Part shown: one piece after another, positions 25,317 to 29,561 of the stretch
How the letters are laid out: every line of letters starts with the position of its first letter
Position numbering within the stretch: the first letter of the stretch is position 1
Position numbers and translations under genes: made by a program
Source of the DNA: Bacteroidota bacterium
GTDB lineage: Bacteria > Bacteroidota > Bacteroidia > Flavobacteriales_F > PHOS-HE28
NCBI GenBank assembly: GCA_018266475.1
Contig: JAFEAI010000034.1
Location: 1 to 34,087, forward strand
Direction: 5' to 3'
DNA length: 34,087 nt
The notes under the pieces: model-generated
What the model was told of the DNA's origin: nothing
Seen by the model: the letters and a program-made list of their open reading frames with translations, nothing else
Databases searched by the model: none

Positions 25317-27212
25317 TTAGCGCTTGAGGAACCCGGCGCTCATGAGCGGGGCTCCATCGGGCAGCACCACGGACAGGCTGTACCAGCCTTTTGCCAGGCG
25401 GCCGGTGGAAAGCGTGGCTGCCGGCTCACCCCGTTTGACGGCGATCAATTCCTCTTGCACGGTGCGGCCTAGCGCATCCTTCACAAGGACCAAGGCATCG
25501 CCGTCCACCGGGGAGGTGAAGGCCACGTTGAGCAGGTCGTCCGCCGGATTGGGGAAGAGCACCGGTTTTGCGCCGGGGTCCAGCCCCAGGTAGGCCACCA
25601 CGGTTTGTGTGATTTCCGACCTGCCGTCGCGGTCCACCTGGTTCAGTCGGTAGTAGTTGGCTCCTTGCAGCGGGTGTTCATCCACAAATTGGTAGTCGTT
25701 CCTGTATTGGGCATCTCCGGTAGCGGGCACGGAACCCACAGTGTGGAACTCACGGCTGTCGGCACTGCGTTGCACCTCAAAGAAAGCGGCATTGCGTTCG
25801 GTTGCCGTGGCCCAATCCACCATGATTGCCTGGTGTTGCGCGGTGGCTTCCAGGGAAAGCAGTTCCACAGGGAGTACGGTGCAGTCCAGGGATGATCCCC
25901 CGCTGAGGCTCCAGGCCAGGTTGAAGGATTGGCCGGAAACGGAATAGTTGTCGATGTACAGTACATACACCTTGCCGGCCACCACGCTCAATGGTGCCAC
26001 CCAGCCATCGTTGGTGGCTAAGCCTCCGAGGATGGGAGGGCGGTATGGACCTTCGGAGAAGTCGGTGGCACCGTTGCCCATGCCGCCGGAGTAGGAGCTG
26101 TAGTAGGCATTGTCGAAATAGCTGCACCGTGCGGGCGGGCCTGTGGGGCATACTGCATCGTCAAATGGTCCCCACAGAGCAAAGTCGTAGTCATCGTTGC
26201 CGGCGGGGGTAAGGGTGAACCCGAGCATGCCGGAGGCCGAAGGGGAGAGGTAGTACCAGGTGCCCTGGCGTTCGCCTTGTGCGAGGCAACCTTGGTTGGA
26301 TGCGTTGAGGTCGCTGAAGCACCCCGGGTTGTTGCTGGTATTGTTGATGTTCTGGCTGGAGCAGACCGTGATGCCGCCACCGCAATCCTGCGGCAGCGAA
26401 GGGGGCAGCGGGGTGCAATTCACCGTGCCATTGAACAAGGTGCCGGTCGCAGGCCCGTTGGGGGAGTGGTATGCGCATTTGCCGGCCACCGACAGCCCCA
26501 CGGAGTTTTCGCTGTTGTAGGAGCCGGAGGAGTAGATGATCTGCACGGCATCACCATTGTTGATGCCGAAATCCACCAGGCCCTCGTATCCGGTGGCCAG
26601 GGTGTACACCCCGAGGCTTATACCATTGACCCGGATCTCCACGGTTGCGGTGGTTCCCACAGTCCAGCCATCGCCGTAGCTGTCGTACAGGTGCAGGGTG
26701 TAGAGGCAGGCCGTGTTGTAGACGCAGAGCGTGCCGTTCATCGCGTTGGCATAGCTGCTGGTGCGTTGAATGCGCACATAGTAGGTGTTTCCCGGCACGG
26801 TGGGGATCGTCACGGTTTCGGTGCCGTTGTTGCCGTTGTTGTCAGCACAGCCCAGCAGTGGCCCCGTGCAGCTGGCCATTACTTGGAGGATGGCGTTGGC
26901 CCCGCCGGACGGGGTGTATTGCACCGTGGTTTGGGTGCTGGTGGCAATGAAGGAGCCGAAGGCATCCTGCCGATTGCCGGAGCCGCAACCGCCGGGGTTG
27001 TAATTGTACACGAACGTTGCCGGCTTATTGAAGGCCACGGGAGTGCATGTGCCGTTTACCGGATAGCGGTTGGCGGCGGCATTGGTGCATGCGTCGCTGG
27101 AGGTTTGTGCCGGGGCAATGTGTGCGGCAAGGCCCGTGGCCAAGGCAATGAGGATGTTCAGCCATGCAGGATGGCCGGGCGGTGCAGTTCGGGGCTTTAT
27201 CAGGTTCCGCAT
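25317..27212 (-). CDS. T9SS-secreted protein with type A sorting region
   Basis: A 631-residue secreted protein. The signal peptide has an Arg/Pro-rich start and a hydrophobic core (WLNILIALATGLAAHIAPAQ). The N-terminal part is Cys-poor and beta-rich. It is followed by LHLYDSYGDGW, a DxxGDG motif that is also present as DSFGDG in the 1284-residue protein. A central module (WYYLSPSASGMLGFTLTP, DDYDFALWGP, KVYVLYIDNYS) is a beta-sandwich often seen in T9SS cargo. The C-terminal part is classic: LPVELLSLEA, FFEVQRSADSREF, NYYRLNQVDRDG and the final sorting region VLFPNPADDLLNVAF to the end. ATG 27212 is preferred to ATG 27269, which adds a polar extension before the signal. A truncated paralogue lies just upstream on the same strand. 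Confidence 0.9.
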   Translation of the reverse strand: MRNLIKPRTAPPGHPAWLNILIALATGLAAHIAPAQTSSDACTNAAANRYPVNGTCTPVAFNKPATFVYNYNPGGCGSGNRQDAFGSFIATSTQTTVQYTPSGGANAILQVMASCTGPLLGCADNNGNNGTETVTIPTVPGNTYYVRIQRTSSYANAMNGTLCVYNTACLYTLHLYDSYGDGWTVGTTATVEIRVNGISLGVYTLATGYEGLVDFGINNGDAVQIIYSSGSYNSENSVGLSVAGKCAYHSPNGPATGTLFNGTVNCTPLPPSLPQDCGGGITVCSSQNINNTSNNPGCFSDLNASNQGCLAQGERQGTWYYLSPSASGMLGFTLTPAGNDDYDFALWGPFDDAVCPTGPPARCSYFDNAYYSSYSGGMGNGATDFSEGPYRPPILGGLATNDGWVAPLSVVAGKVYVLYIDNYSVSGQSFNLAWSLSGGSSLDCTVLPVELLSLEATAQHQAIMVDWATATERNAAFFEVQRSADSREFHTVGSVPATGDAQYRNDYQFVDEHPLQGANYYRLNQVDRDGRSEITQTVVAYLGLDPGAKPVLFPNPADDLLNVAFTSPVDGDALVLVKDALGRTVQEELIAVKRGEPAATLSTGRLAKGWYSLSVVLPDGAPLMSAGFLKR

Positions 27213-27756
27213 CACGAGTGATGGCCTTGGGATTTTTTCCTGCCTTGCTGGGTTCCCGCTACGGGGCATCAGAAGGGCGAATGCGACGAACGCGGGTAAT
27301 TCATTGCCAAGTGGTCCAATTATAACGACGGATAAAGTAAATGGGTTTCAAAATGAAATGTCAACAGGATAGCCGAGAAATCCCCATTTTTAGGGATTGA
27401 ACCACGGCGTTCCAGTGAAACGATTTAGCCCGGCACTGGACAATGCCGCAGTGCATGGATGGCGGAGCCCGGTAACGGGATGGCACGTGCTAGATCGGGC
27501 TGCGGACCTCAAATCGGAAATATGCGATCGGGTGATAGCTGCGCTCCTGAAACGCCATGCCACGTTGCGTTTTGCGCATTATCGTTCCTCATCGGGAACA
27601 TGGCCGCGCCTTCGTACGGAATTCGTACAGGAAATGACGCTGTGTTTCCGGCTCCCGCTACTTTCCCTGCTGTATGATCCGGGCAGAATGGCAAGGCGGG
27701 GTATCCTGTTCCGGCCACTTCATCCGCATGGGGATGTACCTGTACTATACACCCCC
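27213..27756. other. Non-coding gap between the T9SS gene and its decayed paralogue
   Basis: In these 544 bases I find no credible gene, RNA or repeat. The first 180 or so bases are AT-richer and must carry the promoter of the 25317-27212 gene, but no perfect TAnnTTTG is present on the minus strand. Short open frames in the rest have no recognisable character. Confidence 0.6.
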
Positions 27757-28550
27757 TTACTCCTTGAAAAAGCCCTCGGATTGCAATTTGGTGCCGTCCG
27801 GGCGGTTGGCTCTAAGGTTGTACCAGCCCTTGGCCAAGCCTTCCAGTCCGAATTGGGCAGCGGGACCTGCACCATCCACCGTGATCGCCTCACGAAGCAC
27901 CACGCGCCCAAGCGCGTCAAGGATGGAGGCTTCCACAGGGCCGGCCATTGCCTTCGGGAACAGGATGTTGAGGACATCACCGGCCGGGTTGGGGTAAATG
28001 GAAAGCCTTCCATCTGCACCACCCAGCGTGGCCACCACCGTCTTGGACCGTTTGGCGGTACCATCCCGGTCCACTTGCTCAAGGCGGTAGAAGTTGGCGC
28101 CCCGGAAAGGGGCCTCGTCCACGAACAGGTAATCGCTGCGGAATTGGGCATTTCCGGCGGCCATCACGGTGCCGATGTGGGTGAAGGAGGCATTGTCCGC
28201 ACTGCGCATCACGTTGAAGTGGCTGCTGTTCTGCTCGGTGGCGGTGCTCCATTCCACAAGCACCTTCGGATCATGGGCGGTAGCTTCCAATGCGAGCATC
28301 TCCACGGGCAGCACGCTGCAATCCAAAGATCCGCCGCTGCTGAGCTGCCAATTGAGGGTGAGGGCTTGTCCGGTGGCGGAGAAATTGTCGATGTAGAGGG
28401 CGAACACTTGCCCGGCCAAGGCCTGGATATTCTTCACCCATCCGGTACCGGAACCCTTCCGTGGTTTGGGTGGCCGTAGCATTGAGCCCGGTGGTATAGG
28501 GCGGCGGCGCGGCATAGCTGCACCGGAGCGGCGGGCCCGTGGGGCGTGCC
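27757..28550 (-). pseudogene. Truncated, frameshifted T9SS protein paralogue
   Basis: This is a C-terminal fragment related to the neighbouring 631-residue T9SS protein. Reading on the minus strand, similarity begins with PTGPPLRCSY (neighbour: PTGPPARCSY). It continues to about 28455, then moves to another frame with GWVKNIQALAGQVFALYIDN (neighbour: VVAGKVYVLYIDN), consistent with one inserted base. From there the frame is intact: LPVEMLALEA, NFYRLEQVDRDG, IYPNPAGDVLNILF and the end GFFKE. About 370 N-terminal residues including the signal peptide are missing; the sequence before 28550 is unrelated and leads into a divergent gene. The 27757-28560 open frame alone would encode about 267 residues without a signal, so a functional product is unlikely. 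Confidence 0.8.
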
Positions 28551-28646
28551 ATGCCGGCAATTGCCCGATTTAATGACTGCCATGCGTGGATGCCTATCCT
28601 TTCCGGCGCAAGCACCGTTGAAACGCCCCTGAACGTTTATTTGCAC

Positions 28647-29561
28647 ATGCGCCAACTTGTATCCCGCTTCCCCGTCCTGTGTTTTGTGCTGCTTACGCTG
28701 GGTTACCAGTTTGCCGTCATGGGCTTTATCGCATGGCGCAGCAAGGCAGGCATCCACCTGCATGAGGACAGGCTGGTACACATGGTGTTCCGCCTGCGTT
28801 TGTTCGGCCCGTTGATCTTCGCGGCGCTGCTTACCTGGTACCTGGAAGGACGCGCGGGCATAGTGGCCTTGTTCAACGGGTTCAGGCATTGGCGGGTGCC
28901 GGCCCGGTGGTATGCGCTGGCCTTTTCGTGGAAGTTCCTGTTCACCTGGTGCGGCATCGGCTGCCTGGCGCTGCTGGGCATACGCGCATGGCCGGGGTTT
29001 TTCGTGGACGGTCTTTGGGGCGGCGATTGGGCCACCCTGAAGAACTTGCTGAAGGCCTTTCCGTTCATCGTGGCCATTGCCTTTGTGGAAGAGACCAGTT
29101 GGATGAAATATTGCGTGACCCGGCTGCAGGACCGCTACCCGGCCGCAGTGGCCTGCCTGCTCACCGGCATTGGCTGGGCGCTGTGGTACATGCCCATGCT
29201 GCTGGTGGGCGAGGGCGTGCCGGACGGTTACCCGGTTGCGGTGTTCATGGCCAGCATGGTGGCGCTCACCTTTTTGCTGGGCTGGGCCTACAACATGACG
29301 CGGAGCGGCACGGTGCTGCTGGTGATGCAGATCGTGAGCAACTGCGCCTTCTTCCTGCTGCCGGTGCTGCCGGGCCTGCACAACTTGGATGCAGCGTACG
29401 TCAACTCGTTCGTTGCGGCCAACGTCCTGTCCGCCTTGTTGCTGGTCCTGGTTTTCGGCTGGCGGGAATTGGGCAGGGACAAGCGTGCCACGTGGAGCGA
29501 GGCCTTGGCCGAAGCAGGCGCTGAACGTTCACTTCAGGCTCCCTTGCGCCGGGCGGCCTAA
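28647..29561 (+). CDS. CPBP-like membrane protein with degenerate catalytic motifs
   Basis: A 304-residue integral membrane protein with about seven or eight helices, resembling the CPBP (CAAX protease and bacteriocin-processing) family. The layout of the three family motifs is recognisable: FVEETSWMKY (residues 146-155) for the EExxxR motif, GWALWYMP (176-183) where a WxxxWH is usual, and VMQIVSN (226-232) for HxxxN. The two glutamates (148, 149) and Asn 232 are kept. The expected Arg is Met 153, the first His is Tyr 181 and the second His is Gln 228. It is therefore probably not an active glutamic intramembrane protease. ATG 28647 was chosen as it gives a short basic start before the first helix; ATG 28590 is possible. 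It diverges from the T9SS fragment. Confidence 0.75.
   Translation: MRQLVSRFPVLCFVLLTLGYQFAVMGFIAWRSKAGIHLHEDRLVHMVFRLRLFGPLIFAALLTWYLEGRAGIVALFNGFRHWRVPARWYALAFSWKFLFTWCGIGCLALLGIRAWPGFFVDGLWGGDWATLKNLLKAFPFIVAIAFVEETSWMKYCVTRLQDRYPAAVACLLTGIGWALWYMPMLLVGEGVPDGYPVAVFMASMVALTFLLGWAYNMTRSGTVLLVMQIVSNCAFFLLPVLPGLHNLDAAYVNSFVAANVLSALLLVLVFGWRELGRDKRATWSEALAEAGAERSLQAPLRRAA

Follow-up and report, generated by a model that had tools for sequence, protein, structure and literature searches.

A candidate CPBP-fold pseudoprotease with fixed active-site replacements in one genus of Flavobacteriales

The gene, its frame and its family

The window, a 34,087-nucleotide stretch of a Bacteroidota contig, carries a candidate CPBP-fold pseudoprotease gene at 28647..29561 (+), coding for 304 aa plus stop. 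Reading from the ATG at 28647, the frame stays open up to its stop at 29561. The list of open reading frames extends the same frame upstream to a GTG start at 28539; the ATG start is supported by the orthologue loci, where the codon aligned to M1 was ATG in 25 of 26 and CTA in L033. A Pfam search of the protein gave 34.1 bits to PF02517 (Rce1-like) against a cut-off of 22.4, and all 36 family members matched the same model at E <= 0.01. The first-pass annotation had described the product as a CPBP-family membrane protein with an otherwise intact frame, and both statements stand. The NCBIfam equivalog for MmRce1, NF041656, scored 24.4 bits, below its cut-off of 425. When the family profile was compared with PDB sequences up to E 10, the sole match was MmRce1 (4cad_C, E 5.6e-7). 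A chance or mis-read frame was ruled out by the Pfam match, by orthologues up to 81% identical and by the pattern of substitution over codon positions, the differences between the window gene and that of locus L005 falling at positions 1/2/3 in the numbers 59/31/109 (302 codons).

The gene is flanked by one gene for a Por_Secre_tail protein and one for an aminotransferase, each on the opposite strand, and surroundings of the same kind were seen at loci L034 and L047. Two neighbours in the window, at 25317-27269 and 27757-28560 (-), carry the type IX secretion C-terminal sorting domain Por_Secre_tail and belong to one cluster.

Active-site residues and predicted fold

The window protein has E148, E149, M153, Y181, Q228 and N232 at the positions of interest. 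To compare these with intact proteases, we used a joint MAFFT alignment of the 36 family members and 25 canonical homologues. The paired glutamates of motif 1, E148-E149 (29088..29093, +), were present in 36/36 members and 25/25 canonical proteins. N232 (29340..29342, +), the Asn of HxxxN, was likewise invariant in the family (36/36; N in 23 and D in 2 of the 25 canonical proteins), and the earlier observation that both Glu and Asn 232 are kept held for all 36 aligned members. Both His residues were replaced, as had been read from the window alone: the first by Y181 (29187..29189, +; Y in 36/36 vs H in 25/25), which aligns to H173 of 4cad_C, and the second by Q228 (29328..29330, +; Q in 36/36 vs H in 25/25), turning HxxxN into QxxSN. 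Neither catalytic His was present in any of the 36 members. The canonical R-G of motif 1 was replaced by M153-K154 (29103..29108, +), with M in 33 and I in 3, and K in 33 and R in 3, of the 36 members, compared to R in 25 and G in 25 of the 25 canonical proteins. The reported loss of Arg therefore holds at position 153 itself, and is qualified by the basic residue that has taken the place of Gly at 154. Of the residues that mark a catalytic CPBP protease, the protein thus has the paired Glu of EExxxR and the Asn of HxxxN, and lacks the Arg, the first His and the second His. Among 15 columns conserved in the canonical proteins, 8 were unchanged in the family, 4 (153, 154, 181 and 228) were fixed to another residue and 3 were variable.

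The genome-contig scan that contributed loci used two patterns, one of which was EET[AST]WMK[FY], and its locus set therefore leans towards M153. The whole-genome search set, which is free of this bias and overlaps in genomes with the set of 36, gave M in 25 and I in 1 of 26 loci, Y in 26/26 and Q in 26/26. Conservation of Met, Tyr and Gln among homologues, proposed earlier as a check, was thus borne out (33/36, 36/36 and 36/36 in the larger set). Because the replacements are fixed across the family, the site is one that changed and was then frozen, by neither drift nor decay.

A misaligned active site was tried as an explanation and ruled out, since hhalign and MAFFT agreed on motif 1 and on the Tyr facing His. 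In the profile match to 4cad_C, the Glu pair fell on E140/E141 and Y181 on H173, and the alignment ended just before Q228. In the hhalign block, Q228 did not lie on the His of the first template row unless the consensus was considered. As the 4cad_C match stops short and the first hhalign row is ambiguous, the register of Q228 comes mainly from the joint alignment and from the HxxxN spacing. Counted without gaps from the Trp that comes before it, the distance to this position was one residue off from that in some canonical proteins (L100 and L101) and the same as in others (L107, L109 and most paralogues of the genus), which places Q228 on the second His. A search for a substitute His across the 36-member alignment found no other invariant His; H45 was present in 33/36 members and had no fixed counterpart in the canonical proteins. 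Together with the Pfam assignment of the family to CPBP, this leaves standing the first reading, for which a different Arg and His in the active site, or a family other than CPBP, had been named as objections.

An AlphaFold2 run on the 36-sequence family alignment gave a model with pLDDT 91.3 and pTM 0.89. With this predicted model as query, the top four Foldseek hits were 4cad chains (E 1.7e-4 to 5.1e-4), followed in fifth place by 6u0o_A (E 1.1e-3). VIA-align 2 matched the model to 4cad_L with Z 23.0 (2.5 A over 245 residues) and to 6u0o_A, SpdC, with Z 20.0 (3.5 A over 236 residues). All other entries had Z <= 6.7, including the BOS complex (6.6) and APH-1 (5.8-6.5), and are too weak to count. 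The suggested comparison of a predicted structure with the CPBP protease Rce1 thus gave a match, and the Rce1 fold is predicted to be kept.

The EExxxR and HxxxN motifs are described in passages of PMC11980579. In passages of PMC10811503, the conserved catalytic residues of MmRce1 are given as E140, E141, H173, H227 and N231, and the mechanism proposed for MmRce1 and DidK has an acidic residue and a His prime the water while a His and an Asn stabilise the oxyanion. MmRce1 (PDB 4cad), an archaeal CAAX prenyl protease, appears to share its fold, the Glu pair and the Asn with the window protein, and differs in having R145 (from the profile-match numbering), H173 and H227 in place of M153, Y181 and Q228. 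With the acid and the Asn kept and both His gone, cleavage by the MmRce1/DidK route is unlikely, and the missing water-priming His and oxyanion-site His would leave no peptide cleavage of the Rce1 type. The protein could nevertheless be a protease in which Glu148 is paired with Tyr181, or with the basic residue that has shifted to 154, and in which Gln228 and Asn232 form the oxyanion hole. The invariance of both Glu and of the Asn, the ability of Gln to donate hydrogen bonds and the constant basic residue at 154 would fit such an arrangement, as would a canonical-type paralogue, L166, that has its Arg one position early, yet this paralogue keeps both His. The family has neither His in any member, passages of PMC10811503 describe the first His as needed for water priming, and in DidK a change of His to Ala or equivalent abolished or strongly cut activity. 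We therefore regard continued proteolysis as quite unlikely.

Distribution, paralogues and selection

Among 45 genomes of the order, 35 had a full-length match (E <= 1e-100), and these all come from one genus. Ten of the 45 genomes had no full-length copy, some of them nearly complete (G023 99%, G018 100%), and the gene is thus not essential to the group. There were two copies in each of G005 and G007 and three in G064, showing duplication of the gene in part of the genus; G064 and G005/G007 are probably the same genomes as those of loci L063-L065 and L048/L051. Beyond the genus, an even sampling of the class (295 genomes) gave weak matches in 13 genomes (best 1e-17), and the 12 that were read, L111 being left out, were all canonical. 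A scan of a collection of 84,980 species gave 35 loci, all in MAGs, with record titles naming Flavobacteriales, Bacteroidetes/Bacteroidota and, once, Chryseobacterium gleum. A quick tree separated the 36 members from the other sequences by a branch of SH-aLRT 100; the tree has long branches, is midpoint-rooted and includes the active-site columns.

As a baseline we examined 101 other CPBP loci of the order, including two from the window's own genome. The profile read 80 of these loci, 76 of them as E, E, R, H, H. Two more (L187 and L214) were read as E, E, R, H, the profile not reaching the second His, and the last two (L166 and L174) at the two His only. Twenty-three paralogues were read from their translations, namely L166, L174 and the 21 without a profile match, and all kept the Glu pair and the two His; EExxxR was present in all of them except L166, where the Arg comes one position early. 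Both His were thus shown in 99 of the 101 loci, and no loss of His was seen among them. L166 (G015:C96) has EExxR for EExxxR, with Met at the usual position of Arg and both His kept, and is a partial parallel to the M153 change. The replacements are frozen across a genus of uncultured Flavobacteriales, while the CPBP paralogues read from the same genomes keep the canonical residues.

Selection was assessed as dN/dS by the method of Nei and Gojobori. The window gene gave 0.159 and 0.133 against its two nearest relatives (dS 0.86 and 1.08), and these two gave 0.142 against each other. The values were 0.080-0.280 for other near pairs and 0.133-0.239 for the six pairs among L022-L025, and ranged from 0.133 to 0.720 over the 14 pairs of lowest pS. 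Divergent pairs reached 0.41-0.72 (0.58-0.72, with L007-L011 at 0.41), at silent sites that are saturated and GC-biased. The high ratios in these saturated pairs and a median pN/pS of 0.59 over 325 pairs limit the demonstration of purifying selection to near relatives, and the purifying selection that had been proposed as a check was found at that depth (0.13-0.16 among the three nearest relatives).

These results bear on the possibility that the gene is a protease gene in decay, for which the lost key residues and a few short fragments beside full copies could be taken as signs. Decay is contradicted by the invariance of the replacement residues and is opposed by the low dN/dS among near relatives; 34 of the 35 scan loci read through to a stop and the remaining one, L048, runs off its contig. 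We give decay almost no credence. The fragments correspond to the C-terminal third of the protein (G009:C139:8272-8517, G026:C155:4251-4490 and G007:C13:13524-13700) and are partial duplicates or contig-edge pieces, with full copies elsewhere in the same genomes. Homology to the canonical EExxxR/H/HxxxN intramembrane glutamic proteases, fixed replacement of their active-site residues and purifying selection among near relatives are shown computationally for this family.

New conserved residues, genomic surroundings and proposed role

Several residues are conserved in the family and not in the canonical proteins. R49 and R51 (28791..28799, +), in the second predicted helix (42-80), were invariant in 36/36 members and unconserved in the 25 canonical homologues. 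The same was true of K96 (28932..28934, +), in the third long predicted helix (86-109; 36/36), and R159 was invariant in 36/36 members and unconserved in the canonical set. A loop, GEGVPDG (188-194; 29208..29228, +), is also conserved in the family, with E189 in 35/36 members and G190, P192 and G194 invariant in alignment A2. Judged from the sequences, the basic residue at 154 and the invariant R49, R51 and K96 could be substitutes for the lost residues, and R49, R51 and K96, lying in predicted membrane helices, possibly form a new charged site.

An aminotransferase-family gene was present in the flanks of 19 of the 36 loci; at 13 of them it stands immediately upstream and points away from the gene. 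Other genes recurred less often in these flanks: gatC at 14 loci, a PF01553 acyltransferase at 13 and a TylF-like methyltransferase at 8. (Neighbour cluster c2 was left out of the counts as it resembles antisense frames.) At seven loci (L050, L052 and L054-L058), the gene is immediately preceded on its own strand by genes for a PF01553-type acyltransferase and GatC, making co-transcription possible there. At others the acyltransferase and gatC face the pseudoprotease gene, and with an orientation that varies across loci there is no fixed operon. The acyltransferase hints at most weakly at a link to lipid.

Both the new residues and this neighbourhood can be read as signs of an enzyme with different chemistry, in which E148/E149, Y181, Q228 and N232, perhaps with K154, R49, R51 and K96, would make up a reworked polar centre whose target is a lipid, an ester or an acyl group, or which binds an anionic ligand. 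The replacements are invariant polar residues and non-random, the new invariant basic residues lie in predicted membrane helices, and the acyltransferase and gatC genes stand just upstream on the same strand in 7 of the 36 loci. Furthermore, passages of PMC10811503 describe the CPBP homologue DidK as having esterase activity, although DidK keeps both His. The literature passages collected, however, contained no CPBP enzyme without these His residues, and the orientation of the acyltransferase neighbourhood is not conserved. We consider such an enzyme unlikely, if worth bearing in mind. A more specific version, to which we give slightly less weight, is that a glutamic intramembrane protease was rebuilt once into a different enzyme or a ligand receptor, with Arg/His/His becoming Met-Lys/Tyr/Gln. 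Together with R49, R51, K96 and the Glu pair, the new residues would make a charged pocket not present before, suited for instance to an anionic lipid or a lipid-linked substrate.

An operon partner was sought in the flanks of the 36 loci and none was found. PF05708, which we take to be the LnsA superfamily, was present in 21 of the 35 genomes with the gene and in 3 of the 10 without; 14 gene-bearing genomes, several of them 99% complete, had no match. PF01832 was present in 41 of the 45 genomes irrespective of the gene. Over the 45 genomes, co-occurrence therefore gave no strict link to an LnsA-like or SagB-like partner, and no PF05708 gene adjoining the pseudoprotease gene was seen in the flanks of the 36 loci. 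The uneven spread of PF05708 would suit a role like that of LnsB, as an accessory to lipoprotein acylation with a partner of NlpC/P60 type, which would be one particular form of scaffold, and LnsB is itself described in passages of PMC7387801 as a CPBP relative without catalytic residues. Given the 14 genomes without PF05708 and its absence beside the gene, we find this very doubtful.

We favour, at a probability of about 60%, a lineage-specific integral membrane pseudoprotease of CPBP fold that acts as a membrane binder or scaffold. The kept intramembrane pocket and helices would bind a membrane partner, be it a transmembrane segment, a lipid or a lipidated protein, and the protein may serve as a scaffold or regulator by analogy with the role proposed for SpdC/LyrA. 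The PF02517 match, the match of the predicted fold to Rce1 and SpdC, the fixed replacements, the low dN/dS among near relatives, the presence in 35 of 45 genomes and the canonical paralogues all argue for a pseudoprotease, as do the non-catalytic CPBP proteins on record in the passages cited here. Against it, E148, E149 and N232 are kept although not obviously needed by a pure scaffold, the fixed polar Tyr and Gln and the basic residues gained at 154, 49, 51 and 96 might point to a changed catalysis, and neither the flanks of the 36 loci nor co-occurrence over the 45 genomes gave a partner gene. The non-proteolytic role that the first-pass annotation had put forward is thus supported by the Rce1-like predicted fold, the fixed Met, Tyr and Gln, and purifying selection among near relatives. 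The family is new; CPBP pseudoproteases as such are already known, SpdC/LyrA, LnsB and APH-1 being described as non-catalytic relatives in passages of PMC7387801. A search of titles and abstract openings in one limited literature collection found no paper on a CPBP pseudoprotease of Flavobacteriales, and although CPBP proteins are widespread, prokaryotic CPBP members are called largely unexplored in passages of PMC11980579. An active-site exchange that is complete, uniform and confined to one lineage is modestly interesting, as it offers a clean natural comparison of what the CPBP fold does when it is not cutting.

The non-proteolytic examples met in the literature passages were staphylococcal proteins, ComM and APH-1. 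SpdC/LyrA of Staphylococcus aureus (PDB 6u0o, the SagB-SpdC complex) appears to share the fold of the window protein (Z 20.0), at 12% identity in the structural alignment, and is almost certainly no protease, its key catalytic residues being absent (passages of PMC7387801); unlike in the SagB-SpdC pairing, no SagB-like gene adjoins the window gene. S. aureus LnsB likewise lacks the conserved catalytic residues, according to the same passages. LnsB requires LnsA, in contrast to the lack of strict PF05708 co-occurrence here, and is linked to CPBP in that paper by remote homology only, whereas the window protein matches PF02517 by a plain HMM. APH-1 of gamma-secretase is a proposed non-proteolytic CPBP relative (passages of PMC7387801), and its Z of 5.8-6.5 against the window model is below the level that VIA-align 2 trusts for helical bundles. 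ComM is possibly non-catalytic; passages of PMC12214887 leave activity possible and report that CAAX-like site mutations abolished immunity. The iRhom pseudoproteases, from an unrelated protease family, are a parallel case in which an intramembrane protease became a pseudoprotease.
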